From Actinomycetota bacterium (lineage in GTDB: Bacteria > Actinomycetota > Coriobacteriia > Anaerosomatales > UBA912), in the NCBI GenBank assembly GCA_023488435.1, contig JAMDCK010000029.1, positions 1 to 53,311 of the forward strand: a stretch of DNA of 53,311 bases, written 5' to 3'. Positions 1,442 through 41,478 of the stretch are shown one piece after another. The position numbers were made by a program, and so were the translations under genes. The notes beneath the pieces were generated by a model that saw only the letters and a program-made list of their open reading frames with translations, did no database searches and was not told the origin of the DNA. The number at the start of each line of letters is the position of its first letter. Positions within the stretch are counted from its first letter, which is position 1.

Positions 1442-2944
1442 ATGACTCCATCACGCGACCCACTCCTTTTCGGCGGATGGCGTGATGCCTCGCATCGCGG
1501 GGGAAGGCTTGCAGCCACTCTCATCGCGCTTGTCCTACTCGTTGCCGTCGTGGTGATCTCCGGACCTGCCGAGGCGTACGCTGTTACTCGCGATGGCATC
1601 ATCACACGGGCCCAGCGGTGGGTCGACCTGCGGGTGCCGTACAGCCAGCGCGCCCTCTTTGAGGGTCATCGCACAGACTGCTCGGGCTTCGTGTCGATGG
1701 CGTGGGGGCTACCCGGTCCTGGTAGGACGACGCGCGATCTTGCGGCGGTCTCAACGACGATCACCCGCGATCAGCTACAGCCCGGCGATATCATGCTCAA
1801 ACCGGGCACCCACGTGGCGATCTTCGCGGGATGGCACAACGCTGAGCGCACCATCTGGCGCTCACTCGAGCAGAGCAACTCACAAGATGGCGCCGTCTCG
1901 CGACTGATCCCGTATCCGTTCTGGGGGGAGACAGGCTACGTACCCCGGCGTTTCAACGGGCTCGGCGATGACTTCCTCGACGTACTGGAACCTGTGTATG
2001 GACGGTGCAGGTACGAGACCGCGGTCAGGGCCTCCTGGACCGCATTCCCCGTACCGACCCAGTCGCGCGATGTCGTGCTGGCGACCGGCGAGCAATGGCC
2101 AGATGCGCTTGGCGGTGCCTCGCTGGCAGGTGTCCTGAGGGCCCCGGTACTGTTGACACGCCAGAATGCGTTGCCGACCTCGGTGCGGGATGAGATAGTC
2201 CGCCTCCGAGCGACTCGAGTCATCATCCTAGGCGGGCCCGGCGCGGTGGCAACCGATGTCGCACAAGCCGTGGATGCCATCGCCGGAGTCCAGCAGGTGG
2301 AGCGCATCGGTGGGGTCGACCGCTTCGAGACAGCTGCTGCGATCGCAACGAGAACGGCTGGCGAGCGACGACGATCGGGACTCACGACACCGACCCCGGT
2401 GTACCTGGCGACCGGCGCAGACTTCCCGGATGCGCTCGCTGTCTCGCCGATAGCCTATGCGAGAGCCCGGCCAGTGTTGCTCACGGGACTTTCGGCGGTG
2501 CCGACACAGACGATTGAAGCACTACGCACCCTGGCAGTCACCGATGTCACCATCCTCGGTGGCACCGGGGTCGTTGATGACAGCGTGATGGTGCAACTCG
2601 CAATCGAGGTCCCCGGCGTGCGCATGACGAGGATACATGGGGCCGACCGCTATGCGACCGCGCTCGCTGTCGCAGCGCACGGCAGCTCGCTGGGTCTGCG
2701 GTGGCGGGGACTCGGATTGGCCGCCGGCACCTCGTTCGCTGATGCGCTGGCAGGCGGAGTCGCGCAAGGCCGCCTCGGCTCGCTTCTGTTGCTCACGCCG
2801 CCGCGGAGCGTGAATGAGGCTGTCGAGTCGGCGGTCCGCACGCGGCGCACGGACATCGTGCGCGCTCGCGTCTACGGCGGCTTCGGCGCCGTCGGCGAAC
2901 TGCCACGCTCCCGCAAGGGGCACGCACTCAGGAACACCCGCTGA
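1442..2944 (+). CDS. Secreted NlpC/P60-type wall protein with three cell-wall-binding (CWB2) repeats
   Basis: The 500-residue product has a long n-region and a hydrophobic signal segment at about residues 20-45, ending near PAEAYA. An NlpC/P60-like domain follows at about 50-165. It contains the catalytic-Cys motif TDCSGF, then LQPGDIM and the TGTHVAIF-like His stretch (KPGTHVAIFAGW). Residues 190-490 hold three CWB2-type repeats, each with a YETA or RFETA/RYATA start, a PDALGG/PDALAV/ADALAG core and a VIILGG/VTILGG/VYGGFG end. CWB2 repeats bind secondary wall polysaccharides of Gram-positive cells, so the protein is expected at the cell surface, where it may cleave peptidoglycan stem peptides. 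A possible -10 (TACAAT at 1346-1351) lies upstream. It appears to be a single-gene unit. Confidence 0.85.
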   Translation: MTPSRDPLLFGGWRDASHRGGRLAATLIALVLLVAVVVISGPAEAYAVTRDGIITRAQRWVDLRVPYSQRALFEGHRTDCSGFVSMAWGLPGPGRTTRDLAAVSTTITRDQLQPGDIMLKPGTHVAIFAGWHNAERTIWRSLEQSNSQDGAVSRLIPYPFWGETGYVPRRFNGLGDDFLDVLEPVYGRCRYETAVRASWTAFPVPTQSRDVVLATGEQWPDALGGASLAGVLRAPVLLTRQNALPTSVRDEIVRLRATRVIILGGPGAVATDVAQAVDAIAGVQQVERIGGVDRFETAAAIATRTAGERRRSGLTTPTPVYLATGADFPDALAVSPIAYARARPVLLTGLSAVPTQTIEALRTLAVTDVTILGGTGVVDDSVMVQLAIEVPGVRMTRIHGADRYATALAVAAHGSSLGLRWRGLGLAAGTSFADALAGGVAQGRLGSLLLLTPPRSVNEAVESAVRTRRTDIVRARVYGGFGAVGELPRSRKGHALRNTR

Positions 2945-11193: not shown

Positions 11194-11211
11194 TTGTGAT
11201 GCAAATCACAT
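11194..11211. promoter_or_regulatory. Rex/CRP-like operator upstream of 13-haem cytochrome
   Basis: TTGTGA-TGCAAA-TCACAT contains a perfect TGTGA-N6-TCACA dyad at 11195-11210. It is centred about 110 bases before the GTG start at 11312. Flanks are shared with the site at 13108 (GGTATTG.CAACT before it, AAT after it). Possible -10 boxes (TATTCT at 11243-11248) lie downstream. The rest of the spacer 11152-11311 holds a short CGTGT/ACACG hairpin just after the preceding stop. Confidence 0.6.
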
Positions 11212-11311: not shown

Positions 11312-13042
11312 GTGATAAGCAGATGGAAAGCGATCCTCATAGTTGCAGTGTTCGCTTCTCTGGTCGGAGCCTCGGGTGCATTCGCCCAACAACCCACTGC
11401 GCCTTTTGACACTAATGCGGAGTGTTTGGTGTGTCACAGCTACACAGCAGCGATACCGATTCAGACCCCCCTCGACTTCACGGCACCGGCAGTTGACTAT
11501 AACCGATGCCTGACATGTCATTTCAATCTGCCGGACCAGGGGGTTTTTGCGGGTCGGCCAGTCCTAGGGCATCTACACAGCTCGTTGCAGAATTGCGCAG
11601 GCTGCCACGATGGTTACGAAGCCTTTGCCTTTACTTACCCTCGGCCAGCGGTTGACATGCTCACCCTGACGCAGTTCGGTTGGTTCCAAAGCGCGGCCTC
11701 CTTGAGTGCTACTCCCGGTCTCTTGCACGAAGTTCACATCAGCGAGGGTTGGGTCGAGACCACCTTTGGGCTGGAGGGCTCCTTGGCTCACACAGTGCGA
11801 CCCGAGAATACCTGCTCCCGCTGTCATGCGTCTGCCGCATGTTCGGCGTGTCATGTCAACGTGCCATTGTCGCACGAGAATCACGCTATACCGGCTTATC
11901 CTGCGGTCACCACCACTACCACGGATGGAATGGTAGTAGCTAGCAGGGCTTCCACTTGCATCAACCCGGCATGTCACTCCGTTGCTGTTGCTGCATCGAC
12001 CGCATTCGTCCCCGGCTGCACCGCGGTCTGCCATCCGGGCTTCGAACGTGACCACGCCCGCCCGGCCACGTGGAACTGGAGGAACGACTACTACGCATGG
12101 ACCATGGGCGGCCAAGATGGGAGAGGGACCATCCTCGCATCCATCGGTGCCAATCCTTACAACCCGGGCGTGCACGGTAATTACCTAGCCAATACCGCCA
12201 AGTGTGGCGTGTGTCACTCGGTGCACCGAGCCCGTGGTGACGGAGTCATGTTGCTGAACACAGGTGATCCGACCTGTGCAGGTTGCCATTTGATTGGCTC
12301 CACTGTGACCGACGTGGTTGTCAACTGGGGCGTTGGGCCCCATGGCGCTGGCGATCCTGCCTCGTGCCAGGCACGAGCATGTCACCTTGATAACCCACAT
12401 GGAGCGAACGGTTCGCAGTACGCGATCGTCTCTCAAAAGTTGCTCAATCCTGCAACCGATGCCCTGCTCGTCACCGCAGTGGCTGAGGCGGGGTCATCGG
12501 GCATCTCTACCACTGAACTCAACGCCCAACCTGGCTCTCTGTGGCCAGAGTCCACACGGTCGCTAGTCCGCACTGGCTACAACTGCAACATCTGCCACTC
12601 TTCGACACAGCTTGCAGTGGTCAACCGCGGGTGGGCCGAGCCCAGGCACGCCAACATAGATGCTACAGCACAGCCGTTGGTTCTAAAGCAAGGTCATATT
12701 GGAGTGGCCGGAGTCAGTGTTGATACATCGGAGACTTGGCGTCCTGGCGTGTGGCATGATGAGACCACCCAGACAGCATTCGCACCGGTCTCCGACTGCG
12801 AGAGCTGCCACGATCAGACCGATGATCGCACCCGAACAGGATTCACCTTCCCCCATGGCCAGACGCCAGTAGGGGCCAGCAACTTGGGAGCAGGCAGGGC
12901 GCTTCTATGGATGGGTTGGTCTGGTGGGGCTGGAGCCACACTCACTCCTATCACCACCGAAGATATGAAGGCCTACGACGGCAACTGCCTCAAATGCCAC
13001 CGTACCAGTGCGGGCGATGCCGGCGTGGGAGTCAGCTACTAG
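11312..13042 (+). CDS. Secreted 13-haem c-type cytochrome (modules A + B)
   Basis: The 576-residue product has a signal peptide ending near GAFA|QQP (about residue 25). I count ten CXXCH motifs (CLVCH, CLTCH, CAGCH, CSRCH, CSACH, CGVCH, CAGCH, CNICH, CESCH, CLKCH), one CX3CH (CTAVCH) and two CX4CH (CINPACH, CQARACH). Residues about 30-245 form a heptahaem module A that recurs at the start of the next gene's product. Residues about 250-576, from ATWNWRNDYY onward, form a hexahaem module B that is the same as the free-standing cytochrome at 30047. No membrane anchor, LPXTG or CWB2 repeat is seen, so it should be extracellular. It probably bridges the two other cytochromes. The GTG start has GGGGAG upstream. 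Confidence 0.9.
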   Translation: MISRWKAILIVAVFASLVGASGAFAQQPTAPFDTNAECLVCHSYTAAIPIQTPLDFTAPAVDYNRCLTCHFNLPDQGVFAGRPVLGHLHSSLQNCAGCHDGYEAFAFTYPRPAVDMLTLTQFGWFQSAASLSATPGLLHEVHISEGWVETTFGLEGSLAHTVRPENTCSRCHASAACSACHVNVPLSHENHAIPAYPAVTTTTTDGMVVASRASTCINPACHSVAVAASTAFVPGCTAVCHPGFERDHARPATWNWRNDYYAWTMGGQDGRGTILASIGANPYNPGVHGNYLANTAKCGVCHSVHRARGDGVMLLNTGDPTCAGCHLIGSTVTDVVVNWGVGPHGAGDPASCQARACHLDNPHGANGSQYAIVSQKLLNPATDALLVTAVAEAGSSGISTTELNAQPGSLWPESTRSLVRTGYNCNICHSSTQLAVVNRGWAEPRHANIDATAQPLVLKQGHIGVAGVSVDTSETWRPGVWHDETTQTAFAPVSDCESCHDQTDDRTRTGFTFPHGQTPVGASNLGAGRALLWMGWSGGAGATLTPITTEDMKAYDGNCLKCHRTSAGDAGVGVSY

Positions 13043-13107: not shown

Positions 13108-13125
13108 TTGTGATGGAAGTCACAT
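13108..13125. promoter_or_regulatory. Rex/CRP-like operator upstream of the giant cytochrome
   Basis: TTGTGA-TGGAAG-TCACAT contains a perfect TGTGA-N6-TCACA dyad at 13109-13124. It is centred about 100 bases before the chosen ATG at 13216, nearly the same distance as the 11194 site from its gene. The conserved flanks make coincidence unlikely. A possible -10 (TATGTA at 13135-13140) follows. Confidence 0.6.
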
Positions 13126-13215: not shown

Positions 13216-16200
13216 ATGTATGGTTATCAGCGATGTATGGTTTTGCTGGTGCTGGGGATTGTTTTGTTCGGGGGCGTCGGTGTAGCGAACGCACAACAAC
13301 CCCAAACGCCGTTCCAGCTACCTGAACCGCCGTTCGAAACCAACGCCGAGTGTATTGCTTGTCACGACATTGCGGCGCAGGCTCCGGTGTTCAGTCGGAC
13401 CGACTTCTCCGCGCCGAGGGTGGACTACGCTAGGTGCCGAACATGCCACTTCAATCTTCCCGATCAAGGCGTCTTCGGTAGTCAGCCAACTCTCGGACAC
13501 CTGCATAGCGAGCTGCGATTCTGCGCCGGCTGCCACGATGACTACGAAGCCTTTGCCTTTACTTACCCACGGCCCGCAGTCAACAATCTGACATTGACAC
13601 CGTTCGGGTGGTTTCAGAGCGCAGCCTCATTGAACGCAACCCCTGGCCTCCTTCATGAAGTACACATCAACGAGGGTTGGGTTGAGACGACTTTCGGCCT
13701 GGGTGGCACGTTGGCACACACGGTCCCTGCCGCCGACACGTGTTCCCGCTGTCATGCTTCTGCTGCATGTTCAGCGTGTCACGTGGGGGTCCCATTGTCT
13801 CATGAGGACCACGCCTTACCGGCCTATCCGGCAGTTACCACAACAACTACTGACGGGATGATCGTTGCCAGCAGGATCTCCACTTGTATAAACCCGGCAT
13901 GCCACTCCGTTGCGGTGGCCGCATCTGCAGAGTTCGTCCCCGGCTGCACAGCAGTCTGTCACCCTGGCTATGACGCATATCATGGGTACGACAGCATCGA
14001 TCATGTCGCCGATGACGGCTTGATCAACGGAATCAGCTGCTCTGCATGCCACTCACTGGATCTCGCGACCGAGCACGAAAGGCCGGACTCGAGTACCGTT
14101 GGACAGCAGTGCATCGCGTGCCACCCCGCACCTAGGGACACGTACACGGTCTGGAACCAGGGTTGCATCCAAGCCGGATGTCACGGACCCACTTCGGCGG
14201 ATCCCTTCCACTCTCAGATAACAACGGGTCATGCGATCTTGGCGAACAACCGGGTGTGTCTGGACTGTCATGCCGGTGATGATCTGGCCCAGGTGCATAC
14301 CCGGGCTGTCGATCCGATCGATCCCACAAGGACCTCGTGTCTTGTCTGCCATGAGCCGATTCCATCGCAGTTCGCAACGGCACACCCAGCTACACCACCT
14401 GTAAGGGACTGTACGGTTTGCCACTTCACCTTTGAGGAACATTACGATGAAGCTGCGCACCTCAGCACCTGGAGCATGGTTGGCTGTGGTGGTGCTGGGT
14501 GCCATACCACGCCCGATCTGATGCTGGCACACACCGAGATCGTTCCGACCTTCACCTGCATGGATTGTCATGCATCTCCGGATCCCATCGTAGTTGCGGC
14601 AATTGAGCAGAGACTGACAGCGTGTGATGCCTGTCATGTCGGCATCGAACAGGATGTTGCGCACAGGTCAGCCCACTGGGCCAACCCCCTTCTGATTGGC
14701 CCACAGGGTCCGAACTACGCATACTGGACCGGCTCGGTCTCTGGACCGTTCACACGCGATTGCGCCTTGTGTCATACAAGCAACCTAGTCGACGAGCACC
14801 AGGGCGTCAGTGAGATGGTTACCGGCACGGCCGTGATCACGAGGCCGACCCGCTACGATGCGCAGGGCAGAGCGCTCACTTGCGCAAGCTGCCATGTGTC
14901 AAGGGACGCAAAGACGGTGAGTGCCATCGCTACCCGGGATACCGCCTGCGATGCCTGCCATGTGGTCCATGGACCCGTAGGAGAGATCCACCAGTCGCGC
15001 TTCGCAGACGTTCAAGAGGTTTCTTGCATCGATTGCCATTCACCGGATTTGACCATAGAGCATGGTGGGGGAATGGTAGCCACAACCTCGGTGACGGGCC
15101 GCCAGCTTACTGGCTGCGATATCTGCCATTCGTACTTCGAGGGAGAGATGGGCCAGCGCTCTGAGCTGGCGATCGAAGCACGTGATACCCGCTGTACTGC
15201 GTGTCACGTAACCTATCACGATGATCTCAGTGTCCACTTGGCGACCAGTGCTGATTCTCTCCGATGTGGCGCTTGTCACGGTCAGGTCGTCGGAGGTGCG
15301 ATAGACGTCGCACCTGTTCATGCTGGAGCCCCGCTGGGCTGTAATGTCTGCCACCGCAACCCCTCCAGGATCCCGAACCTTTCGGCCAGAACAGCCGAGT
15401 GCGCAAGTTGCCATGCGACAACAGGGGTGGACTACCATCGCAATATGCAGGCCGACCACACCTTCGGTGAGATGGATCCCTCGTGTGCCACGGCGGGCTG
15501 TCATGGGACGAACACACTGCCGGAGGTCCACGAACCTTACATGGATAGCTATCCTCAGTACGCCGACACATGCGCACTGTGCCACCGCAACAGTGATCCA
15601 GCGCGCATCGATTGGAACACTGCCACCGCTGATTGCGCCACCTGCCATCAGGTCCACGGTGATATCGATCAGATTCATCAGGCACCCGATAGCCAGGAGT
15701 GCGTGGCGTGTCATGGGACGACTGATATCATCCAACTGCACCCCGCATGCTCTACCTGTCATAGGGTCGGCGTGGATACTACCGTCGGTGCACGGTGCGT
15801 AGCGTGCCATGACTACTCCCCAGCAGAGACGCGGCACCCAATACGTCCGGCTGCGCACGATGCGACCCTGCAGCGGGACTGCCTTGCTTGTCACGTGGTC
15901 GATCTGGTTGCAGAGCATCGCAGGCCAGGGGTAACACCCGTCGGCTGTGTTGCGTGTCACACGTACACCAGGTTCCCGGCCACCTGGGATCGTGGATGCA
16001 GTCAATGTCATCCTGTCGTGCATGACCGGATGGCTCAGGCACATGTTTCCACCGATGTAGCCTGTGGTGGGGCAGAGTGTCACGCTATACAAGATGTAGC
16101 CGTGATTCACGCGAACGCCGCCCCCGGTGGAGGTTGCTCCGTGTGTCATGTCAGTCCCAGCGTACCCGCGACCACCACTGCATGCGCTGCGTGTCACGGA

Positions 16201-17787
16201 CAGGTGGGTGCGGACCGCCACCGGGCTGTTCACGATGGTAGGCGTGCCAACGACATCGGCTGTGAGGGTTGTCACTTCCGCTTCGTCGACCAAGAGCATG
16301 AGGTTCTTGGGTTCAACTGCTCCACTTGCCACCGGTCCACTGACCCTGTGGTTCAAGGCGCTATCCAGGCGAACGATCTCAACTGCCTGACTTGCCATCC
16401 CAACTCGCCTCACAACCGCAGGCAGGCCATGGAGTTCGATCCACGGAATGCTTCGATGCACAGGGTAAGAGCGGACCTACCCGGAATGCGCGATCGCTTC
16501 GTCGTCAACGGAGTGACATACACATGGGCTATCCCACCCGCATCGTCGTTCCTCCTGCCCGGCTGGAGGATCGACTCGATCACGAGGTGTAGCGATTGCC
16601 ACACCTATACCGGTGCTGAGGGTCCCCATGGGGCAGCGATGAGGATCAACATAGATCCCAGGTTCCCCAACCCCTATCGTGTCATTACGGGCAACGAGAA
16701 CTTCACAGCTCAGCTCAGTGCCAACTCACCTACCGGCATGAGTATGACGAAGAACGGTTCGCGTCCAGCCGGGATAATCTGCGAGAAGTGTCATGACCTT
16801 CGCTCTCCGAGCGGTGTCTGGAGTACGAATGCCCACCAAGAGCATGACGATCGGGGTTACGAAGGTGCTTTCTGCAACCAGTGCCATGTGGCTATCCCGC
16901 ATGGCTGGGGTCGCCCCCGACTGTTGGGAACAGTATATGATCCACCAGCCTACAGGGTCTGGCCGGGCACTCCTGGACGCAACGACGCAGGTACCTCGCG
17001 TATCAGTATCAGGAGCTACACCCCGCAGGGCTGGCAGGAGCAGGATTGCGGTGCCGCTTGTGACGTCTCGGAGCACCCACTTCAGGGCACCTCCTGGCCC
17101 AACATCATGCCCGGTGGAATACCTGGTACTGGTGGAGTCACCGGACGTGTGACCGACGCTTCGACGACGGCTGCCGTCGCTGGTGCCACAGTGACACTGA
17201 ACACCGGAGTCTCTGCAACCACCGGAACCGATGGGCGCTACTCGCTAAGCGGCGTTGCGCCGGGTGCACGCACCATGACCATCACAAGATCCGGGTACAA
17301 CAATTGGTCCGGACCAGTCACTATAGCCTCTGATGCAACGGCCACGGTGAATGTAGCCCTTTCGCCTATGGCCGTTCCTCAGCCTGTCAACCTCGCACTG
17401 AACAGAACGTTCACTGCGTCCAGGTCGGACAGCAACCATCCTCCCGCCCGTGCGGGAGACGGCAATCTGCAGACCTTCTGGTGGTCGAACAGGACTGGAG
17501 GGGCCACGACAACAGAGCGTTTGTCGGTTGACCTAGGATCCTCACGTAGCATCAGGACAGTCGAAGTCGCCTGGAGCGGAAACCTATGGGCCAGATCCTT
17601 CAGGATTCAGACCTCGACCGATGGCACCAACTGGACCACGGTGTTCAGCACCACCACTGGAACGTCTGCGATGCAGCGGATTACGTTCAGTGCCCGGAAT
17701 GCACGGCACGTCAGGATTGAGTGTCAGGCAACCGGTACTGGTGCGGCCAATGGTTATGGGATCGCCGAGTTCAGGGTATTCCAGTAG
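13216..17787 (+). CDS. Giant secreted multiheme cytochrome (about 43 haem motifs) with C-terminal discoidin domain
   Basis: The 1523-residue product starts at an ATG preceded by GAGGTGGGG; an upstream in-frame ATG at 13180 has no ribosome site. A signal peptide ends near VANA|QQP (about residue 27). By eye there are 37 CXXCH, one CX3CH and five CX4CH motifs, spread over residues about 35-1270. The first seven repeat module A of the preceding protein. A carboxypeptidase-regulatory-like beta-sandwich (about 1305-1385, GRVTDASTTAAVAGATV, DGRYSLSGVAPG) and an F5/8 type C (discoidin) domain (about 1389-1523, from NLALNRTFTAS to GIAEFRVFQ) close the protein. Discoidin domains bind sugars, so the protein may sit on wall or capsule polysaccharide. 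The likely role is long-range extracellular electron conduction. It appears monocistronic, with its own operator and a hairpin after the stop. Confidence 0.9.
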   Translation: MYGYQRCMVLLVLGIVLFGGVGVANAQQPQTPFQLPEPPFETNAECIACHDIAAQAPVFSRTDFSAPRVDYARCRTCHFNLPDQGVFGSQPTLGHLHSELRFCAGCHDDYEAFAFTYPRPAVNNLTLTPFGWFQSAASLNATPGLLHEVHINEGWVETTFGLGGTLAHTVPAADTCSRCHASAACSACHVGVPLSHEDHALPAYPAVTTTTTDGMIVASRISTCINPACHSVAVAASAEFVPGCTAVCHPGYDAYHGYDSIDHVADDGLINGISCSACHSLDLATEHERPDSSTVGQQCIACHPAPRDTYTVWNQGCIQAGCHGPTSADPFHSQITTGHAILANNRVCLDCHAGDDLAQVHTRAVDPIDPTRTSCLVCHEPIPSQFATAHPATPPVRDCTVCHFTFEEHYDEAAHLSTWSMVGCGGAGCHTTPDLMLAHTEIVPTFTCMDCHASPDPIVVAAIEQRLTACDACHVGIEQDVAHRSAHWANPLLIGPQGPNYAYWTGSVSGPFTRDCALCHTSNLVDEHQGVSEMVTGTAVITRPTRYDAQGRALTCASCHVSRDAKTVSAIATRDTACDACHVVHGPVGEIHQSRFADVQEVSCIDCHSPDLTIEHGGGMVATTSVTGRQLTGCDICHSYFEGEMGQRSELAIEARDTRCTACHVTYHDDLSVHLATSADSLRCGACHGQVVGGAIDVAPVHAGAPLGCNVCHRNPSRIPNLSARTAECASCHATTGVDYHRNMQADHTFGEMDPSCATAGCHGTNTLPEVHEPYMDSYPQYADTCALCHRNSDPARIDWNTATADCATCHQVHGDIDQIHQAPDSQECVACHGTTDIIQLHPACSTCHRVGVDTTVGARCVACHDYSPAETRHPIRPAAHDATLQRDCLACHVVDLVAEHRRPGVTPVGCVACHTYTRFPATWDRGCSQCHPVVHDRMAQAHVSTDVACGGAECHAIQDVAVIHANAAPGGGCSVCHVSPSVPATTTACAACHGQVGADRHRAVHDGRRANDIGCEGCHFRFVDQEHEVLGFNCSTCHRSTDPVVQGAIQANDLNCLTCHPNSPHNRRQAMEFDPRNASMHRVRADLPGMRDRFVVNGVTYTWAIPPASSFLLPGWRIDSITRCSDCHTYTGAEGPHGAAMRINIDPRFPNPYRVITGNENFTAQLSANSPTGMSMTKNGSRPAGIICEKCHDLRSPSGVWSTNAHQEHDDRGYEGAFCNQCHVAIPHGWGRPRLLGTVYDPPAYRVWPGTPGRNDAGTSRISIRSYTPQGWQEQDCGAACDVSEHPLQGTSWPNIMPGGIPGTGGVTGRVTDASTTAAVAGATVTLNTGVSATTGTDGRYSLSGVAPGARTMTITRSGYNNWSGPVTIASDATATVNVALSPMAVPQPVNLALNRTFTASRSDSNHPPARAGDGNLQTFWWSNRTGGATTTERLSVDLGSSRSIRTVEVAWSGNLWARSFRIQTSTDGTNWTTVFSTTTGTSAMQRITFSARNARHVRIECQATGTGAANGYGIAEFRVFQ

Positions 17788-21605: not shown

Positions 21606-21611
21606 GAATCG

Positions 21612-21981: not shown

Positions 21982-21987
21982 GAATCG

Positions 21988-27833: not shown

Positions 27834-28637
27834 ATGCAGCAAGATCGCCCAGACGATCGCGAAGGTTTCCAGTTCGATGAAACCACAAAGCCCGCTCCTC
27901 GCAAGCAGGTTCGGCGTAAGAGCTCGATCTTCGACGATCCCGTGGTTCGCAAGATGTCATTCGCCGCAGTCGGTATTCTGATCCTATTCCTTGTAACAGT
28001 CGTGAGCGCCCTTGTTACAGGAGTTATACAGCCCGGTGGGCCGCGGACAGCCCTAGAGCGTGACATATCGGTGACGGGCGCTGCGGTACGTGCCGGCACA
28101 ACGGATACGAGCGTGTGGGCTCGTCATATCTCGGCTCTCATACTCGACGGCCAATTGGGTCGGGCCGAGAACATCCTGAGCACTGCCAAAGCTAGCTTGG
28201 ATGATTCTTCGACAGCTGACATCGTTCTGAGTGAGGCGCGCCTGTTGAGGGCACAAGGACAGTATGAGGAGGCCCTTGAAGTCGCCGATGCCGCCCGGAC
28301 CCAGATTCGCGAGCATCACGAGGCGCAGCTTGCTGAGGGCGGAGTCATCGCCAACGCGGCGCGTCTAGCCGGATACCACGATAACTATCACATCGCCCTC
28401 ATCGTCAAGGCCGACATCTATCGCGATATGGAGGACTGGGACAGAGTGCTGGAGCAGTACAACGCCTTCATTGAATCCAACCCTGGAGCCGCCGACATCC
28501 TGACTGATCGCGGGAACGTCAAGTTCGAAATGGGCGACAGGACCGGTGCAGAAGCTGATTACCGCGAAGCGCTTAGATTCTACCCTGACTACGAAGAGGC
28601 CCTTGCGGGGCTAGAGAGGATCGGATCGTCTCAATGA
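27834..28637 (+). CDS. Membrane-anchored TPR protein
   Basis: The 267-residue product has a basic cytoplasmic N-terminus and one membrane helix (about 42-64, FAAVGILILFLVTVVSALV). An extracellular region of TPR repeats follows (ADIVLSEARLLRAQGQYEEALEVADAA; HIALIVKADIYRDMEDWDRVLEQYNAFIESNPG; ADILTDRGNVKFEMGDRTGAEADYREALRFYPDYEEALAGL). The ATG has GGAGGAA upstream. It overlaps the next gene by 4 bases. TPR scaffolds of this kind help assemble surface or cytochrome complexes; that role here is inferred from the neighbours. Confidence 0.8.
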   Translation: MQQDRPDDREGFQFDETTKPAPRKQVRRKSSIFDDPVVRKMSFAAVGILILFLVTVVSALVTGVIQPGGPRTALERDISVTGAAVRAGTTDTSVWARHISALILDGQLGRAENILSTAKASLDDSSTADIVLSEARLLRAQGQYEEALEVADAARTQIREHHEAQLAEGGVIANAARLAGYHDNYHIALIVKADIYRDMEDWDRVLEQYNAFIESNPGAADILTDRGNVKFEMGDRTGAEADYREALRFYPDYEEALAGLERIGSSQ

Positions 28638-29890
28638 CCGATACAGTTGCAGAAAACCCCCCAGCTGCTCAAAGCCCGGAAGTGGTCTCTAGGCGCGGAC
28701 GAAGGATTCTGGGATTGGTTCTCGCCGCCCTGCTCCTTCTCCTTGGTCTTGCTACATTCCTTCTGCTCCGCTTGCTGGATCCCCCTGGCGATATTCCTGC
28801 TACCGAGGAATTGCTCGGCATCGAGTGGGTACGCTCGATCTACGGGATGAGTGTAGCGCCGGAGGACCAGTTCCAGCGTACCGCTGCAGCTGCTCCGGGC
28901 CCAGATGGGTCTATACATATCACTGATGCACAGCATGGTGCGATCATGAGGTTCACTCCTGATGGTCGCTATATTGAGACCTTTCGTGGCCCTGAGGCTG
29001 ATCCGCTGGTCGTACCGGGTCGCCTTACTGTCGGACCGGATGGCTTGATTTATGTCGTGGAAACCCAGAACGACCGGGTCCGCGTCTTGAATCCAGACGG
29101 ATCTTATATTGGTACGTTCAGCGTTCCCAGACCAGTCTCGATCGCGGTGAGTGAAGACAAGATCGTTGTAGGCTCGGTCAACGGGTTTGCGATATTGGAC
29201 CCCACCGACGGCAGTCCAGTCCGTGTGATAGGATCCCGCGGCCAAGCTGATTATCAGTTCGATTACGTACACGGGGTGGCCATCGGTGAGGATGGCCGGA
29301 TATTCGTTGCGGATTCGTTCAACAACAGGATCAGCGCATATGATGCTGAGGGCAATCGCCTGTGGATTGTAAGAACCGGAAAGCCGTCTAACCGCGCAGA
29401 GATGATCGATGGACGTCTCACGGTGCGAGAGCTCGAGGACCAAGCGCTCACGGGTGAAGAAGCCCTGCAGTTGCCCCTAGGAATGACTCTCGATGGTGCT
29501 GGAAGAATCGTAGTCGCAGACATGTTCGAGTGTGCGCTGGCGGTTTTCGATCCGGAAGACGGATCCCTGATAGGGAAGTACGGCACGCCAGGGCCAGAGG
29601 ACGGGAAGTTCTTCTATCCGACGAATGTCAGTTATGACCCTCAGCGCGACTGGTTCACCGTCTCGGATACGCAGAACAACAGGGTCCAAATCGTGAGACT
29701 TCCGGACTCTGCCGGTGGCGGTGATGCTGCAGCTGCGGCGAGACGGGTGCTCGATGGACCGATACGAGCATGTGCGATCCCGCTGGCTCTGGTGATTATT
29801 GCTGTCGGAGTCGCTCTGTTCTTGCGCAGGAAGAGAAATCAGGCTACAAGCACGACACCGAGTCCAGAAATTCTCGACCGTTCCACATAA
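28634..29890 (+). CDS. NHL-repeat beta-propeller protein with two membrane helices
   Basis: The 418-residue product has membrane helices near both ends (about 26-47 and 378-399). Between them lies an NHL-type six-bladed propeller with repeated NDRVRVLNPDG, NNRISAYDAEG and NNRVQIV motifs. The loop carrying the propeller should lie outside the membrane, with both ends in the cytoplasm. It overlaps the TPR gene by 4 bases. NHL proteins are found near extracellular cytochrome genes in several electron-transferring bacteria (from memory), so a role in cytochrome export, folding or docking is plausible but unproven. Confidence 0.8.
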   Translation: MTDTVAENPPAAQSPEVVSRRGRRILGLVLAALLLLLGLATFLLLRLLDPPGDIPATEELLGIEWVRSIYGMSVAPEDQFQRTAAAAPGPDGSIHITDAQHGAIMRFTPDGRYIETFRGPEADPLVVPGRLTVGPDGLIYVVETQNDRVRVLNPDGSYIGTFSVPRPVSIAVSEDKIVVGSVNGFAILDPTDGSPVRVIGSRGQADYQFDYVHGVAIGEDGRIFVADSFNNRISAYDAEGNRLWIVRTGKPSNRAEMIDGRLTVRELEDQALTGEEALQLPLGMTLDGAGRIVVADMFECALAVFDPEDGSLIGKYGTPGPEDGKFFYPTNVSYDPQRDWFTVSDTQNNRVQIVRLPDSAGGGDAAAAARRVLDGPIRACAIPLALVIIAVGVALFLRRKRNQATSTTPSPEILDRST

Positions 29891-30018: not shown

Positions 30019-30046
30019 AATCCGCTTGGGAAAGGAGGTGCAGTAC

Positions 30047-31195
30047 ATGAAACAAGCAACGACCCATATGTCTCTTACTAAAGGAGATTATTCGGTGAAA
30101 AGAAGAAGTGTTCTTGTTATTGCGATCGCGGTCGCTCTCGTCTTTTTGTTCGCAGCCTCCGCATACGCATCGTTCCTAGCCCCGACACGGGCCAGGACCT
30201 GGAACTGGATGGCGGATTACTACACTTGGGGATCACCCATCGGATCAGGAGTTGCTGGTGGAACCCTGTTGAGTGCCACTGGCGCCAACCCCACGAACCC
30301 CGGCGTTCATGCCAACTACCTGGCCAACACAGCCAAGTGCGGCATCTGCCACTCGGTTCACCGTGCAGCTGGTGACGGCGTCATGCTGCTGGGGACAAAC
30401 AACCCTACATGCGCAGGGTGTCACGTTATCGGCTCGACAGTGACCGATTTGGTGGTCAACTGGGGTGGAGGCCCTCACAGCGGTGGTAACCCACTGGCTT
30501 GTCAGGCTCGCGCCTGCCATCTGAACAACCCGCATGGTGCTAACGGCTCGCAGTACGCCATCGTCGCTGCAGCGTTGCTCAACCCGGCCACCGACGCACT
30601 GCTCGTGACCCCGACAGCCAACCCTGTTGCATCCGGGATCTCGGTTGCAGAGCTAGATGCCGTTGCAGGCTCGGTTTGGCCGGACAGCACGCGTTCGCTG
30701 GTCCGCACAGGCTACAACTGCAACATCTGCCACTCATCCACGACGCTGGCAGTGGTCAATCGCGGTTGGGCTGATTTGCGCCACGCCAACATCAACGCGA
30801 CCCAGGCACCTTTGGTGCCCAAGCAGGGTCACATCGGTGTCGCTGGAGTGACAGTCGATGCAGCCGAGCAGTGGGTGTCGAATGGCGTTACCACGACCAT
30901 CGTCGAAACCACTCAGACAGCGTTCGCTGGCGTTAGTGACTGCGAGAGCTGCCACGATCAGACCGATCCGCAGACCAGCTCAGGGTTCACGTTCCCCCAT
31001 GGTCAGACCACAGCCGCTGGTGCTGGGTCCAACATGCCTGATGGCACCAGAGCTTTCCTCTGGATGGGTTGGTCCGGTGGCGCTGGTACTACGCTTACGC
31101 CTATCACCACCAACGATATGAAGGCGTATGACGGTAACTGCTTGAAGTGCCATCGCAACAACGCTGGCACCGCAGGTGTTGGACTCACCTACTAG
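30047..31195 (+). CDS. Secreted hexahaem c-type cytochrome (module B alone)
   Basis: The 382-residue product has a signal peptide (KRRSVLVIAIAVALVFLFAASAYA, cleavage near residue 41). It has six haem motifs: CGICH, CAGCH, CQARACH (a CX4CH), CNICH, CESCH and CLKCH. The mature part aligns along its whole length with module B of the 13-haem protein at 11312. There is no membrane anchor or wall-binding domain. Two in-frame starts each have a strong ribosome site: ATG 30047 after AAAGGAGGTG, and GTG 30095 after AAGGAG. The second gives a more usual signal peptide. The strong site, structured leader and downstream hairpin suggest high expression. Size and haem number resemble hexahaem nanowire cytochromes such as OmcS; filament formation is only a hypothesis. 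Confidence 0.9.
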   Translation: MKQATTHMSLTKGDYSVKRRSVLVIAIAVALVFLFAASAYASFLAPTRARTWNWMADYYTWGSPIGSGVAGGTLLSATGANPTNPGVHANYLANTAKCGICHSVHRAAGDGVMLLGTNNPTCAGCHVIGSTVTDLVVNWGGGPHSGGNPLACQARACHLNNPHGANGSQYAIVAAALLNPATDALLVTPTANPVASGISVAELDAVAGSVWPDSTRSLVRTGYNCNICHSSTTLAVVNRGWADLRHANINATQAPLVPKQGHIGVAGVTVDAAEQWVSNGVTTTIVETTQTAFAGVSDCESCHDQTDPQTSSGFTFPHGQTTAAGAGSNMPDGTRAFLWMGWSGGAGTTLTPITTNDMKAYDGNCLKCHRNNAGTAGVGLTY

Positions 31196-31254: not shown

Positions 31255-31283
31255 GGGGTCGGCCCCGATATGGGGTCGGCCCC
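31255..31283 (+). terminator. GC-rich hairpin between hexahaem and membrane cytochrome genes
   Basis: Two direct copies of GGGGTCGGCCCC (31255-31266 and 31272-31283), separated by GATAT, can pair in RNA as a 12-bp stem with two G-U pairs. There is no T-run. It could act as a partial terminator or 3' stabiliser, making the upstream cytochrome more abundant than the downstream ones. Confidence 0.5.
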
Positions 31284-31329
31284 GATTCATGCACATCGTT
31301 ACTTGCTCATACTCCGGGTGTCCGCAGCA

Positions 31330-32295
31330 ATGTCCTTAGCGATTTGGGGTAATGCCTTGCGCCTGATCCGAAAATCACTACTCTGGCTCATCGTCGCAGT
31401 GCCGCTTGCCCTACTCATCCCGATAAGCGGCTATTTCTATATGGGGTTTGCGCCCTGTGCATCGTGTCACCAGGAGGAGTCTTTCTTCGATGCAACCCAG
31501 ATGAGTGCTCATGCCGCCATCCGGTGCGTTGACTGTCATGCCTCAGGTGGGGTTGTAGGAAGAGTGGACTTCGGATTTCGCCACCTGGCCAACGTCCTGC
31601 CTATTGGTGCGGATGGGTCGAGGGATCTGGCCGCCGTCGACGACCGGAGTTGTCTGCAGTGTCATCAGACCGTGATGAATCGCGCGATCGATACCGGTGC
31701 CATCAATATCAACCACGCATATTGCTCGGCGACTACCCCATGTACCGACTGTCACTCCACCGTCGCGCATGGGAAGGAGATTTCCTGGGTCCGCACGTAT
31801 GACATGGAGACGTGTCTCTCCTGTCACGTGGAGGCAGGCTCCGTAGATTGTGCTCTGTGTCATGTAGGCCGGTTGCCCAAGGATCGAATCACCACCGGCA
31901 CCTTTGCTATCACCCATGGTCCCCAGTGGGAACAGACCCACGGTATGGGAGACTCCTCGACCTGCGCTGCCTGTCACACCGCTGCTGCTTGTCAAACATG
32001 TCATGGCGCAGGGGTACCGCACGAGCCGGATTTCGTAAGGGTCCATTCTGAGTACGCTGTGGACCCCGAACAACTCTGTGTCGACTGTCATGATCAAAGA
32101 TTCTGCGACGACTGCCACGGCCTGGCTATGCCTCATCCGAATAGATTTGTACGGGCGCACGCACAATACGCCGAAGAGGATGAGGAGCTCTGCCGTCGTT
32201 GTCATTTGGAGCCCGACTGCACTGTATGTCATGAGACTCACATCCATCCCGGTGGCGCCCTTGATACCTTGCCACAAGGCGGTGAGACCCGCTAA
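31330..32295 (+). CDS. Membrane-anchored 12-haem cytochrome (one N-terminal helix)
   Basis: The 321-residue product starts with a single membrane helix (about 16-36, LLWLIVAVPLALLIPISGYFYMG) directly followed by FAPCASCH. I count twelve CXXCH motifs (CASCH, CVDCH, CLQCH, CTDCH, CLSCH, CALCH, CAACH, CQTCH, CVDCH, CDDCH, CRRCH, CTVCH). The anchor followed by a haem domain is like NapC/NirT quinol-oxidising cytochromes, but with many more haems. A longer frame reaches 31270, inside the hairpin, so I take the ATG at 31330; no strong ribosome site is seen. It overlaps the next gene by one base (TAATG), so the two are translationally coupled. It probably moves electrons from the membrane quinone pool outward. 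Confidence 0.85.
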   Translation: MSLAIWGNALRLIRKSLLWLIVAVPLALLIPISGYFYMGFAPCASCHQEESFFDATQMSAHAAIRCVDCHASGGVVGRVDFGFRHLANVLPIGADGSRDLAAVDDRSCLQCHQTVMNRAIDTGAININHAYCSATTPCTDCHSTVAHGKEISWVRTYDMETCLSCHVEAGSVDCALCHVGRLPKDRITTGTFAITHGPQWEQTHGMGDSSTCAACHTAAACQTCHGAGVPHEPDFVRVHSEYAVDPEQLCVDCHDQRFCDDCHGLAMPHPNRFVRAHAQYAEEDEELCRRCHLEPDCTVCHETHIHPGGALDTLPQGGETR

Positions 32296-33506
32296 TGGAA
32301 GAGATTTTGACATCACTCTCTGGTTTGTGGACTCGGCTCCTGACCCTTCTGCTTGATCCTGCCACGGATATTGGTGCGGCCCTGGCACTCTACGCGATTC
32401 TGGGCACTCTGTTAGCGATAATTCTGGTCATCGCCATCATGTTCGTTGTTGGATCCCCCGAAGATGAGGCGATCGATTCCGAGCATATGGGCATAGACCA
32501 CCCCCCGCTCGAGAAGCTATCAGAACCACCTGACTCGGATGTGCCTCCTCCGCTTCCTCCCCGTACACCCAAGGAGCGGTTGGCTGCTCTGGGCATCACT
32601 GTTGCCGTCGCATCTCTTGTCTGGGTGATTGCCGGGTACTCGACAAGCACGACATGGGTTTGCGCCTCTTGCCATACCGAGACCGTCCACACTGTCTCGG
32701 ATACTGCGGCTGATCCACACTCTGGAGTTTCGTGTGTGGCCTGTCACGAACCGGGCGGATTGCTCGCAAGGGTTTCGATAGGCTTGCCCGACAGGAGTAT
32801 GCACTTTCTGTCCCAACTTGCCGGAATCCCCGAACAGTACCCATATGGACGGCCCACTCAGGCCGCGTGTTTGAATTGTCATTCCCCAGACGTCGCTGGT
32901 GTTGCTCTTGACGACTATCGAGGGATACGGGTCTCGCACCAAGAGCCGCTTGAGGCAGGAGCTACATGTTTGGACTGCCATCGTCTAGCGGATGGAAGTG
33001 TGGCCGCTCATAACGCGGGCATGAGTCCATGTTTGCGCTGTCATAACGCGACGATAGCCAGCGCTGCTTGTGATACTTGCCATGTGGGCGATCCCGCAGC
33101 CGCAAGCGCTCCTAGCACCGCCAACGCTACTGTTCAGATTGAGAACCTCTCCTGCGGTGGCTGTCACGATGAAGAGCGTTCCTGCGATCCATGTCATGGT
33201 GGCTTCAGGCTTCCGCACTCTCGTGAGTTCATCATGGTGTCCCATGCAAGGGTGGCATTCGTAGACTTCGTTGAGAACGACGGGCGGCGTTGTGCGCAGT
33301 GCCATACCGAGACTCGGAACCCCTGCTCGCAGTGTCACACTCCTATGCTAGGCTCCGCTCATGGCCCCGGTTTGATGCAGGACCACCAAGGGGCAACCGC
33401 GGCTGGCTGCGATACTTGTCATCAGCAGTGGGCGTTCAGTCAGGAGCGCGATTTTTGTGCCGATGTCTGCCATACTGACGCCGCCATCAGGTATAGCCCC
33501 CGCTAG
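32295..33506 (+). CDS. Membrane-anchored 12-haem cytochrome (two helices)
   Basis: The 403-residue product has two membrane helices (about 26-52 and 99-118). A Pro-rich cytoplasmic loop (about 55-95, PPPLPPRTPKER) joins them, and the haem domain after the second helix begins TTWVCASCH. Twelve haem motifs are seen: eleven CXXCH (CASCH, CVACH, CLNCH, CLDCH, CLRCH, CDTCH, CGGCH, CDPCH, CAQCH, CSQCH, CDTCH) and a final CADVCH (CX3CH). It is coupled to the preceding gene and probably forms a membrane complex with it. The last third of the gene belongs to the first copy of a 638-bp duplication. Confidence 0.87.
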   Translation: MEEILTSLSGLWTRLLTLLLDPATDIGAALALYAILGTLLAIILVIAIMFVVGSPEDEAIDSEHMGIDHPPLEKLSEPPDSDVPPPLPPRTPKERLAALGITVAVASLVWVIAGYSTSTTWVCASCHTETVHTVSDTAADPHSGVSCVACHEPGGLLARVSIGLPDRSMHFLSQLAGIPEQYPYGRPTQAACLNCHSPDVAGVALDDYRGIRVSHQEPLEAGATCLDCHRLADGSVAAHNAGMSPCLRCHNATIASAACDTCHVGDPAAASAPSTANATVQIENLSCGGCHDEERSCDPCHGGFRLPHSREFIMVSHARVAFVDFVENDGRRCAQCHTETRNPCSQCHTPMLGSAHGPGLMQDHQGATAAGCDTCHQQWAFSQERDFCADVCHTDAAIRYSPR

Positions 33507-34153: not shown

Positions 34154-36001
34154 ATGCCCGATCACACCACGACAGTCCCTGGATACCAGAAGTATGTGCT
34201 GCCGGCTCTCTTGCTAGGTGTGCTTCTGTCGCCCGGTGCCTGGTTGATTGTCAATCTCCCCCCGGTTCCTGTATCTCAAGCCTTCCATCTTGCGACAGCT
34301 GGAGCAGCTTTGCTTGCGTCGGCAACAGGGACCCTCATGCTTGCCAGCCTCGATCGTCGGCTGCTGGCTGGCCTCGCGGGCATCTTGGGTGTTGTGGTGA
34401 CATCCTGGGTAGCTGCGGGAGATATGTTCGCAGCCGTTTTTTATGATCTGTATGCGAGCATGCCCCTTGTGCAGTGGATGGCCTTTCCCTTGGTGTTCAT
34501 TCTGGCTGCAAAAGTCGCCTTCACGCGTAGGAGCATCGAAGACGCCCTTGTCGTGGTCGTAGGTTTCGGCGTGGTGCTGTCACTCGTGCTCGTCTTTCAG
34601 CAGGTCACCACTGCAACGATACGGGTGTTCGGCTCTACTGGGTACAGTACCGCTGCGCTGATGCCGCTGGTCCCGATTGCCGCGATCATCGCTGCATCGC
34701 GCAAGGACTGGAGTAGACCCGCGTTGTACGCAGCAGCAGTGACCATCTGCCTCGCCCTAGGTGTATTCTCTGGCTCGGTGATGGCGTCTCTGGCAGCGGT
34801 TTTCGCAGTAGCCGTGACGGTCGCGGTCCACCCTGCACTCGGATCGTTCAAGGGTATGCTGGCTCGCATCGTGAAATCCGCCGCGTTGTTTGTGGGCGCA
34901 GCGATGTTCTTGGGGCTAATGGTGATTCAGGTGCCCGCTGTTTCTTCGGCGGTTGTGGATATGGAGTCGATCGTTGGGACTGATGGCAATATGCTGTCGC
35001 GCGTGCAGATGTGGGGTGGGGCCCAGGGCATGCTTGAGGACCGCCCGCTGTTGGGTTTCGGGCCGTCGGGATACAGGATGTACGCGGCCGAGTACCTACC
35101 CCCTGAGATGTTCCAGCACACTCCCGATCGGGTAGGTAGCATCGACCCTGAGGTCTACAGTCCGCAATCCCCGCATTCTTGGCTATGGGAGATTGCGACT
35201 CGACTGGGGCTAGTCGGCGTACTGGCGTTCGCCTTCATGCTGGGATGTTGGGCCTGGACACTACGGGATAGGGTGGCGGCTACAAACGACGAGGCCCACT
35301 TGCGCCTGGCTTTGGCCGGAGGTTTTGCCATCGCCATGTTCGCGCTGCTAGTTAACCCCGTGATCTTTGCGATCGGGTTGTTCGCTCCGCTCATGGCCGG
35401 GCTGGCGGTGGCACCGTGGACTTCCGTGGATGTGGGTCGCTCGGCGGGTTGGTTCCGGCCTCTCGCTGCTGCCGGCGGGGTTGCAATCATCGTCGTGGCC
35501 CTTTGGCTCGGTGTCGGCGGATTCCGGCTGTTCTCGGTCTCGTCAGACGATGCGAATCTAGCCGCGCACCAGCTTGAGCGAGTGCGCGGGATCATGCCGG
35601 GACATCCGGTGGTCGAGCGCAGGTCTTTGGAGGTCGCCCTTCTGCTGGCTCCCGACGAGGCTCAGGTGAGGGCTGTGCAGGATCGAGTGGATCGGGCGCC
35701 TCGGCACATACATGAGTTCGCACCCAATCTAGTCAGCCTTGCCACCTACTCCTTGGCCCAAGCGAGTCGAACCGGACGCACTGATCTGGTGTGGGAGCAG
35801 AAGATGCTGGATACAGCAGCCGAAAGGCTTCCTCCGACACCAGCGCTTGTGGCAGAGCAACTGCACCTAGCGGTGCTGTCCGGTGATCCCGAGCGGGTCT
35901 GGGCTGCGCTTCCGGAGGCGCAGCGTTGGGGGAGCTACTATCCGTTCATCGGCGATTATCTTGCGCGCGCCGAGGCGGTAGTCGGTCAGCCGCTGCGCTA
36001 G
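34154..36001 (+). CDS. O-antigen ligase/polymerase (Wzy-like) membrane protein
   Basis: The 615-residue product has about ten or more membrane helices over residues 15-455. Between helices lies the large outer loop typical of the Wzy_C/O-antigen ligase family, with LGFGPSGYRMYAAEY and SPQSPHSWLWEIATRLGLVG (about 300-355). A C-terminal extramembrane region (about 465-615) is helical and may be TPR-like. Such proteins polymerise or transfer undecaprenyl-linked glycans outside the membrane. It starts 9 bases after the copied cytochrome stop; in the unduplicated arrangement it lies 9 bases after the real one. The EPS genes may therefore be cotranscribed with the cytochromes. Confidence 0.82.
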   Translation: MPDHTTTVPGYQKYVLPALLLGVLLSPGAWLIVNLPPVPVSQAFHLATAGAALLASATGTLMLASLDRRLLAGLAGILGVVVTSWVAAGDMFAAVFYDLYASMPLVQWMAFPLVFILAAKVAFTRRSIEDALVVVVGFGVVLSLVLVFQQVTTATIRVFGSTGYSTAALMPLVPIAAIIAASRKDWSRPALYAAAVTICLALGVFSGSVMASLAAVFAVAVTVAVHPALGSFKGMLARIVKSAALFVGAAMFLGLMVIQVPAVSSAVVDMESIVGTDGNMLSRVQMWGGAQGMLEDRPLLGFGPSGYRMYAAEYLPPEMFQHTPDRVGSIDPEVYSPQSPHSWLWEIATRLGLVGVLAFAFMLGCWAWTLRDRVAATNDEAHLRLALAGGFAIAMFALLVNPVIFAIGLFAPLMAGLAVAPWTSVDVGRSAGWFRPLAAAGGVAIIVVALWLGVGGFRLFSVSSDDANLAAHQLERVRGIMPGHPVVERRSLEVALLLAPDEAQVRAVQDRVDRAPRHIHEFAPNLVSLATYSLAQASRTGRTDLVWEQKMLDTAAERLPPTPALVAEQLHLAVLSGDPERVWAALPEAQRWGSYYPFIGDYLARAEAVVGQPLR

Positions 36002-36042
36002 GTTATGATGCAATCATAGGCTCGAAGAGAAGGAGTCCTTAC

Positions 36043-37503
36043 TTGAGTACGGAAGATTCCGTTTACGCGGTTATCCTTGCGGGAGGCAGCGGCACGAGGT
36101 TTTGGCCACTCTCGCGGGAACTCTCGCCAAAGCAGATGCTCACTGTTTTCGGGCATGAGTCGCTCATCGCACAGGCTATCCGTCGGGTCGATGATTATGT
36201 TGCCCCCGGCGATGTGGTCGTCGTGACGAACGAGCGACTCTTCGACGAGCTTCGCAATCACCTGTCATCACAGGCTGACTCGCGAATGAGGCAGGCGCGC
36301 TACCTGGTCGAGCCGCTTCCGCGCAACACCGCACCAGCGATCGCTTATGCTGCGGCCACGTTGGTGCTCGATGACCCCGAGGCAGTGATGATAGTGCTAC
36401 CTTCTGACCACCTGCTCGAGCGCGATGGTGTCTGGGACGCTTGCGTGGCTTCGGCGATCGCGGCGGCGCGCGATGGTTTTCTGGTCACCATCGGCATCAC
36501 GCCGACCCGACCCGAGGTCGGCTACGGCTACATCCAGGCGGGCGAGGCGATGCCCGAGTACTCGCGCGCCGAGGCCGTGCCGCAGTCGGCCACCCGCTTC
36601 GTCGAAAAGCCCGACCTTGCTACCGCCGAATCGCTGCTGGCGGCAGGCGGTTACCTGTGGAATGCGGGCATCTTCGTCATGCGTGCGTCGCGGGTGCTCG
36701 AGGAGCTTGATGCCCACGCTGACACCTCTCCAATTGCTGATACGGCGCGTTGGCTCGCCGCCGAACAGGCCGCGGGGCGCTGCGATGCCGATGAGGCGCG
36801 CAGGCGCTTTGGGGAGATCGCGTCGATTTCGGTAGATCATGCGATCATGGAGCGCTCGGGCAGGGTTGCTGTGATTCCTTCGGCGTTGAACTGGAGCGAT
36901 GTCGGGTCGCTACTGGCCCTGGGGGACGTACTGCCTGCCGATGATGATGGTGTGGTGCGCGTGGGCAGGGGAGTCGATCTGGATACCCGAGACACGATCG
37001 TCTACTCGACCGACCGATTGGTGGCGACGTTGGGTTTGACCGACATGCTAGTCATCGACACCGCTGACGCCACCCTCGTGGCCAGCAAGGACCGGGCGCA
37101 AGACGTTCGACTGGTGGTCGAGGCGCTAGCACTGGCTGGGGCGGAAGAGGTCGTGCAGCCCAAGGTGAGCTTGCGGCCATGGGGCTCGTGGACGAGCCTG
37201 CTGAAGGGACCGGGCTTCCAGATCAAGCTACTCGAGATCCACTCGGGCGCCAAGCCTAGTCTCCAGCGGCATCATCACCGCTCCGAGCACTGGATAGTCG
37301 TTGCAGGGACGGCGCTTGTGACCCGTGGCGAGGAACGCTTCGAGGTCCACGTGAATGAGAGTGCTTACATCCCTGTTGGCGCGGAGCACCGCATCGAGAA
37401 CTGCGGCAAAGTGCCGCTCAAGGTCATCGAGGTCCAATTGGGCGAATACCTAGGCGAGGACGATATCGTGCGCCTGGAAGACGACTGGAACAGAAAGGAC
37501 TGA
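36043..37503 (+). CDS. manC: Mannose-1-phosphate guanylyltransferase / mannose-6-phosphate isomerase
   Basis: The 486-residue type II PMI-GMP protein makes GDP-mannose. The nucleotidyltransferase signature [23 protein letters not shown] opens the protein, [16 protein letters not shown] and FVEKPD follow, and the C-terminal cupin isomerase has [24 protein letters not shown] and [12 protein letters not shown]. The start is TTG 36043, with AAGGAG seven bases upstream; a longer open frame to 35926 overlaps the preceding gene and has no homology. It supplies GDP-mannose to the next enzyme. Confidence 0.93.
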
Positions 37504-37508
37504 ACGCT

Positions 37509-38480
<972 letters not shown>

Positions 38481-38487
38481 TCGCCTC

Positions 38488-40724: not shown

Positions 40725-40808
40725 AAGGCCTCGCCACCTAATAGAGTTAGCGGCAGAGTCGGGCCGTCTTGGACGGCGACCGGTCGGAAGAAGAAGGAGC
40801 TGACTAGA

Positions 40809-40920
40809 GTGCTCGATCTTGCAAACAAGCGCGTGATGGTGACCGGTGGATCCGGGTTCCTCGGCGGGTTCGTGCTCGACGAGCTGGCTGCCAGGGGTTG
40901 CACGCAGGTCTTCTCACCGC
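40809..40920 (+). pseudogene. 5' fragment of GDP-fucose synthase gene (divergent allele)
   Basis: It holds the GTG start and about 37 codons ([20 protein letters not shown]...), with one amino-acid difference (E for K) from the intact gene at 41479, and is then cut at the duplication joint. The ribosome site AAGGAGCTGACTAGA is the same as in the intact copy. Confidence 0.82.
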
Positions 40921-41395
40921 CTGGACGCCAGCTGAGCCCGCCGAGCTGCTGACTGCGGTCAACACCCTGAGCCAGCCGGCCACCTTCGTGCGGCGCAGGG
41001 TCATCGACGACGTGCTGCTCGATCAATCGCTGCACTTTACGATGGATTACGACCTGTGGCTTCGGCTGCACTTCGCTGGCGCTCGCTTCGGCCGCTTGAG
41101 CCGGATACTCGCGATCGACAGGCACCAGCCTGCGCGGAAATCCTCGACGATCCTCGACGTGCACAAGGCCGACCTCGCCACACTGGCCGCCCGCTACGAC
41201 ACGCGGCTCGGGCCGCAGTGGAAGTCGCTTCGCAGCCGCTACTACGTGTGGCAGCGGATCGCTGGAGCGGCTCAAATACCCCGCATCAGACCGCCATTCG
41301 CATTCGCGGCCCCGGACGACCTTACGCGAGGGCTGCTGGCGCGTCAGCTCATCACCCGCAAGTCGAAGTGGCCAGCCGAGATGCGCGGCTTGTGA
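40921..41395 (+). pseudogene. 3' fragment of the family 2 glycosyltransferase (second copy)
   Basis: It repeats the last ~157 codons of the gene at 39855 (WTPAEPAELL... to AEMRGL). It lacks the nucleotide-binding half. An in-frame start at 40898 would only give a fusion with cut fcl sequence, so I treat it as debris. Confidence 0.82.
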
Positions 41396-41478
41396 AAGGC
41401 CACGCCACCTAATAGAGTAATCGGCAGAGTCGGCGGCTTTGTTGGCGGCCGGGCAGAAGCGAAAAGGAGCTGACTAGA

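Follow-up and report, generated by a model that had tools for sequence, protein, structure and literature searches.

Some genomes of the order Anaerosomatales (Actinomycetota, Coriobacteriia) encode a giant cytochrome in which a chain of 43 haem motifs, in the form described here, runs into a C-terminal discoidin domain of two exchangeable subtypes; comparison of the sequences suggests that this tail has been swapped repeatedly between the subtypes on the haem chain. The window, i.e. the whole 53,311-nucleotide stretch that was analysed, derives from a subsurface bacterium of this order with a draft genome of 1.7 Mb. We consider it somewhat better than an even bet that the protein is an exported single-chain electron conduit on the surface of a single-membrane cell, held to glycan by its tail. 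The broader proposal, that in the monoderms of a single order a conserved giant haem wire is kept outside the cell by a glycan-binding module interchangeable among species in a receptor-tip-like manner, is more tentative and in our estimate falls a little short of even. The gene and the parts of its product are as follows:

13216..17787, + strand: gene for the giant multihaem cytochrome of 1523 aa, with 43 haem motifs and a tail of CpD and discoidin domains
13216..13293, + strand: predicted signal peptide, residues 1-26 (...GVANA/QQ), from sequence inspection
13348..16887, + strand: haem chain, residues 45-1224, with 37 CX2CH, 5 CX4CH and 1 CX3CH motifs, from motif count and orthologue conservation
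16411..17103, + strand: C-terminal cytochrome module, residues 1066-1296, with 3 haems, ending CX3C-X4-H...SWP
17137..17364, + strand: CarboxypepD_reg (CpD, Ig-like) spacer, residues 1308-1383, from Pfam and AlphaFold (pLDDT ~95)
17389..17784, + strand: F5/8 type C/discoidin (CBM32-type) domain, subtype I, residues 1392-1523

A recount of the motifs gave exactly the figures of the initial annotation, namely 37 CXXCH, five CX4CH and one CX3CH in 1523 residues, or 43 CH motifs in all; in 1000 residue shuffles of the protein the CX2CH pattern occurred on average 0.31 times (maximum 3) and the CX2-4CH pattern 0.92 times (maximum 5). Inspection of the open reading frame revealed an alternative in-frame ATG at 13180, but the start at 13216 is preferred because it results in a proper signal peptide and agrees with the starts of the orthologues. 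In a hydropathy scan the top 19-mer lies at residue 7, nothing past residue 40 exceeds 1.23, and hydrophobic helices are absent apart from the signal peptide. With its many conserved CXnCH motifs and its export signal (inspection and hydropathy) the protein falls among the giant extracellular cytochromes, and it is predicted to be exported and to carry about 43 haems. The module of residues 1066-1296 is common to other cytochromes of the order, which end at that point. Its terminal CX2-4C-X2-5-H ... WP signature (17047-17103 in the giant) also closes many cytochromes of the group (L033, L050, L052-L055, L059 and L065) and could be an unusual additional haem site or a disulphide.

Downstream of the haem chain, the initial annotation had placed a carboxypeptidase-regulatory-like domain followed by an F5/8 type C domain and had proposed an HMM search of the C-terminus. 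This search bore out both assignments at scores above the Pfam curated cut-offs: CarboxypepD_reg (PF13620) matches residues 1308-1383 with E=2.2e-14 and F5_F8_type_C (PF00754) residues 1399-1509 with E=2.3e-19 (70 bits against a cut-off of 28.2). The haem chain with its tail was found in about 22 of the 69 genomes of the order, counted from a genome search and spanning nine families, and the complete tailed forms mostly have 37-60 haems. About two thirds of the 69 genomes, including G001 of the same genus, are without a tailed giant, which is thus not essential to the group. One orthologue, in G007 (L033), is a giant without the tail that ends at the very ...SWP preceding it elsewhere, and in L030 and L041 the discoidin domain is present and the CpD spacer missing. 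A contig-end ORF of another genome (L064, G067:C92) has the order discoidin-CpD-discoidin with both discoidins of subtype I, possibly a two-headed tail. Among 149 genomes of the class there is no tailed giant outside the order, and among 396 genomes of the phylum out-of-order matches are confined to the discoidin domain alone; candidate independent fusions in G257, G331 and G249 (Actinomycetota outside the order) were rejected, as the ORFs there carry zero haem motifs.

A 20-row alignment of the orthologues showed that each of the 43 motifs is conserved wherever its segment exists, and that the 37-haem forms lack exactly haems 7-12, which constitute one six-haem block. Of the 50 histidines outside the motifs, 35 reach 80% conservation or more in the same alignment, a number sufficient for what would be mostly bis-His haem ligation. 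Between the window and L024 (71-72% identical) pN is 0.21 in the discoidin domain and 0.18 in the haem chain, with synonymous sites saturated; thus, both parts are under constraint.

The discoidin domains of the orthologues split into two subtypes, of which subtype I is marked by ...WWS... and ...ECRRTGTGRNNGYGIAELRVF and subtype II by ...YWRS... and ...VYCTxANSxxYRINEFEVWG. Their distribution conflicts with that of the adjacent haem module. The window shares 66-67% identity with L030/L031 in residues 1066-1296 but only 42-45% in the discoidin domain, whereas with L027-L029 it shares 46-47% in the former and yet 57-59% in the latter. On the adjacent haem module alone, a tree constrained to unite subtype II loses 170 log-likelihood units (p-AU 8e-37), the well-supported branches require five subtype changes or more, and the subtype labels cluster on this tree no more than shuffled labels. 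The longer haem region likewise conflicts with the subtype grouping; tested on the discoidin sequences, the opposite grouping is rejected in turn. Given that sorting of paralogues would move tail and chain jointly, recombinational exchange of the tail is the simplest reading. Such swapping is no harder to reconcile with a variable glycan, for example on a foreign surface or in an exopolysaccharide, than with a conserved polymer of the wall.

The genomic company of the giant includes further cytochromes, NHL and TPR proteins and polysaccharide genes, along with two palindromes of the CRP type:

11195..11210: CRP-type palindrome TGTGATGCAAATCACA, upstream of the chimeric cytochrome gene
11312..13042, + strand: 13-haem chimeric cytochrome
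13109..13124: CRP-type palindrome TGTGATGGAAGTCACA, upstream of the giant gene
27834..28637, + strand: TPR protein of a second cytochrome cluster
28634..29890, + strand: NHL-repeat beta-propeller protein
30026..31195, + strand: six-haem cytochrome
31270..32295, + strand: 12-haem cytochrome
32295..33506, + strand: 12-haem cytochrome with weak NrfH-like similarity
34154..46851, + strand: polysaccharide synthesis cluster (Wzy_C, ManC, GDP-mannose dehydratase, glycosyltransferases, DegT, methyltransferases), which might supply the glycan

The cluster coding for the TPR, NHL, six-haem and two 12-haem proteins lies 10 kb downstream of the giant in the window, and contig C14 of the same genome groups a 15-haem gene with NHL, Rex and Wzy genes. 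Neighbours of the giant, before or after it, in many relatives are a 15-haem protein whose N-terminus bears a hydrophobic segment, a 12-haem protein similar to NapC/NrfH, proteins of the NHL and TPR types, Rex, and genes for the assembly of cytochrome c (ResB, CcsA-type). Chimeric construction is evident in the 13-haem cytochrome: its residues 1-248 copy the N-terminus of the giant (70%) and residues 250-576 are a 72.5% copy of the six-haem gene at 30026-31195; the promoter palindrome is duplicated too. The palindrome TGTGAYNNNNRTCACA has two sites in the whole genome, one before the giant and one before the chimera, and the two promoters are probably copies of each other. A similar palindrome precedes the giant in L024, L025, L026 and L032, and in L042 it lies 118 bases ahead of the ORF start; its presence before the giant in several species indicates that it is conserved. 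The six-haem protein is kept beside NHL and TPR genes in L034, L035, L038, L041, L050 and L065. Its profile matches are weak, with E=2.5e-6 for 9yuq (16 chains) and 0.0022 for OmcE (7tfs), and single domains are not significant; that it might be a filament subunit is a possible but weak lead.

The initial annotation had supposed a single-membrane cell, and what is recorded of the host agrees: it belongs to the Anaerosomatales, in which the wall of the cultured members is Gram-positive and an obligate Fe(III) reducer is known (PMC9686372), and its own genome has no Omp85. A point against the conduit proposed below is that the same source reports no respiratory quinones detected in these cultured organisms. 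The genome encodes 309 CXXCH-coding sites against 81 for a reversed control pattern, 46 CWB2 repeats and one sortase, and the F5/8C domain of the giant is its sole copy; SLH domains were not found in it. On the giant itself a motif check detected no LPXTG and a Pfam scan no CWB2, SLH or S-layer domain, upholding the earlier remark that the usual wall anchors are missing. Thus, the standard wall module is available in this organism, as illustrated by a neighbour in the window, yet remains unused on the cytochrome:

1442..2944, + strand: CWB2 triple-repeat protein, carrying the organism's usual wall-binding module, which the cytochrome lacks

A 1339-aa ORF on contig C14 (L044, 14554-18573), alongside the 15-haem gene, combines an NHL-like match with a CWB2 triplet and is predicted to be a wall-anchored propeller.

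In light of the above, we propose that electrons would start in the quinol pool and pass to the NapC/NrfH-like 12-haem and the membrane-tethered 15-haem cytochromes, and from these to the 43-haem chain, which would run outward through the wall and deliver them to an external acceptor, for example an Fe(III) mineral. Forty-three haems in single file could reach roughly 30-40 nm, about the scale of a Gram-positive wall. At the far end the C-terminal discoidin domain, borne on the Ig-like spacer, would grip glycan non-covalently and serve as an exchangeable module of the conduit. In Geobacter, cytochromes are reportedly anchored by a network of extracellular polysaccharide (Rollefson 2011, by its title as cited in PMC5585712). 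If correct, the broader proposal would amount to a sugar-based, non-covalent means of fixing electron-transfer proteins outside the wall, unlike porin conduits, filaments or S-layer fusions. It would bear on the way in which cytochromes are held within the wall of single-membrane bacteria or outside it. Repeated domain exchange on a conserved haem chain would further show that attachment and conduction evolve separately. The cytochrome gene itself encodes the candidate glycan contact, a compact 130-residue domain that can be expressed, so that it is directly testable.

Among known systems, OcwA, OmhA and related cytochromes have far fewer haems than the giant. They are likewise cell-surface cytochromes of monoderm Fe(III) reducers, and the portions of their descriptions consulted mention no sugar-binding tail (PMC7829351, PMC10376724); the second of these also records NHL and TPR proteins in the cytochrome clusters of Dethiobacter. 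The ANME giants MHC-A/B and MHC-C are likewise very large single-chain cytochromes (20-80+ haems) with envelope- or carbohydrate-related fusions in single-membrane cells and a proposed electron route through the outer layer. They differ in being archaeal, with S-layer domains and C-terminal transmembrane helices in MHC-A/B and a pectin-lyase-like part in MHC-C, and the sections of the source used here describe no discoidin/CpD tail (PMC9012536). The PSCyt cytochromes of Verrucomicrobia likewise join cytochrome c domains to F5/8C or CBM domains, but have planctomycete-specific domains and no giant chain, are predicted to be periplasmic or cytoplasmic and relate to sugar metabolism (PMC5615132). 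Within the same order, the excerpted account of the Anaerosoma/Parvivirga clusters gives their cytochromes as MtrA/OmcH homologues together with a quinol-oxidising multihaem protein and makes no mention there of a discoidin tail; it reports that the Fe(III) reducer Parvivirga has a multihaem cluster with cytochrome c biogenesis and Rex genes, and that these are absent from the non-reducer Anaerosoma tenue (PMC9686372). The locus of a 37-haem orthologue (L027, G025) matches the make-up of the Parvivirga cluster and was taken as Parvivirga, and G042, taken to be A. tenue, has no giant. The giant does not conform to an MtrCAB porin-cytochrome conduit, the host being an actinomycetote in which a search for Omp85 found none, and a PDB search of the giant matched discoidin proteins only, with no OmcS, OmcE or OmcZ filament subunit among the matches. 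Within the collection of papers searched, no publication combines multiheme with discoidin. Giant cytochromes with envelope domains (ANME; PMC9012536) and PSCyt-F5/8C proteins (PMC5615132) were already known, and an adhesin fusion had been proposed (PMC6085454); what is new here is the existence of two tail subtypes and the disagreement of their distribution with the neighbouring haem module.

This adhesin fusion was inferred for CFE_2239 of Carboxydocella. CFE_2239 is likewise a multihaem cytochrome, secreted by a Gram-positive Fe(III) reducer, and its non-haem part resembles an adhesin, but it has 17 haems, belongs to the Bacillota, and its non-haem part has no reliably predicted known domain (PMC6085454). 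By analogy, the tail of the giant might be an outward adhesin that docks the wire onto an acceptor or partner, by binding plant or humic matter, glycans on other cells or the polysaccharide coating a mineral, instead of an anchor to the cell's own envelope. The repeated exchange between two subtypes and the absence of the tail in one genome would fit selection by a changing external ligand, and the discoidin-CpD-discoidin ORF at the contig end of G067 points the same way; however, subsurface hydrogen/Fe(III) lithotrophs can do without a biotic partner, and the organism's own genome encodes a polysaccharide cluster nearby. We give this possibility roughly one chance in four.

The solved proteins nearest to the tail by sequence are chitosan-binding CBM32 modules of Paenibacillus chitosanase (E ~1e-18). 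An AlphaFold model of residues 1295-1523 has a mean pLDDT of 78.9, with ~95 in the spacer and values below 50 in the apical loops of the discoidin domain; for residues 821-1305, modelled from two sequences, pLDDT was 27 in the haem part. Foldseek searches with the tail model recovered the discoidin jelly-roll, with 4zy9, 4zxe and 4zz5 as best matches (target TM 0.78-0.80), again Paenibacillus chitosan-binding modules. Sequence and modelled fold together identify the tail as a discoidin domain of the CBM32 type with putative carbohydrate binding. Its nearest solved relatives on both counts, DD1/DD2 of Paenibacillus sp. IK-5 chitosanase (4zxe, 4zz5), are accessory modules of an enzyme, unlike the cytochrome-borne tail, which keeps the core residues but differs at positions 14, 31, 36 and 61, the chitosan contacts of DD1/DD2. 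Chitosan was therefore dropped as a candidate and we propose no ligand.

A ligand pocket unlike that of CBM32 modules of known specificity would also suit a discoidin domain that acts in protein-protein contact or self-association without binding sugar, for instance with giants joined head-to-tail or docked to the NHL beta-propellers; the giant would then store or conduct electrons while other cytochromes hold it in place. Discoidin domains can indeed dimerise and bind partner proteins (PMC2789033), and CpD is a common spacer; on the other hand, the closest relatives of the tail in sequence and fold are nearly all carbohydrate-binding modules. We regard this explanation as improbable, more so than an outward adhesin.

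The window contains two perfect tandem duplications of two copies each, at 33183-34458 (638 bp) and 21357-22108 (376 bp), which are probably assembly faults or very recent. Their resemblance to assembly faults might evoke an artificial fusion of the cytochrome to an unrelated downstream discoidin gene, a notion to which we attach next to no probability as the orthologues refute it, the identical fusion recurring in about 22 genomes of nine families with the frame open throughout. The 638-bp duplication also creates a four-haem ORF at 33872-34144, which is likely false.
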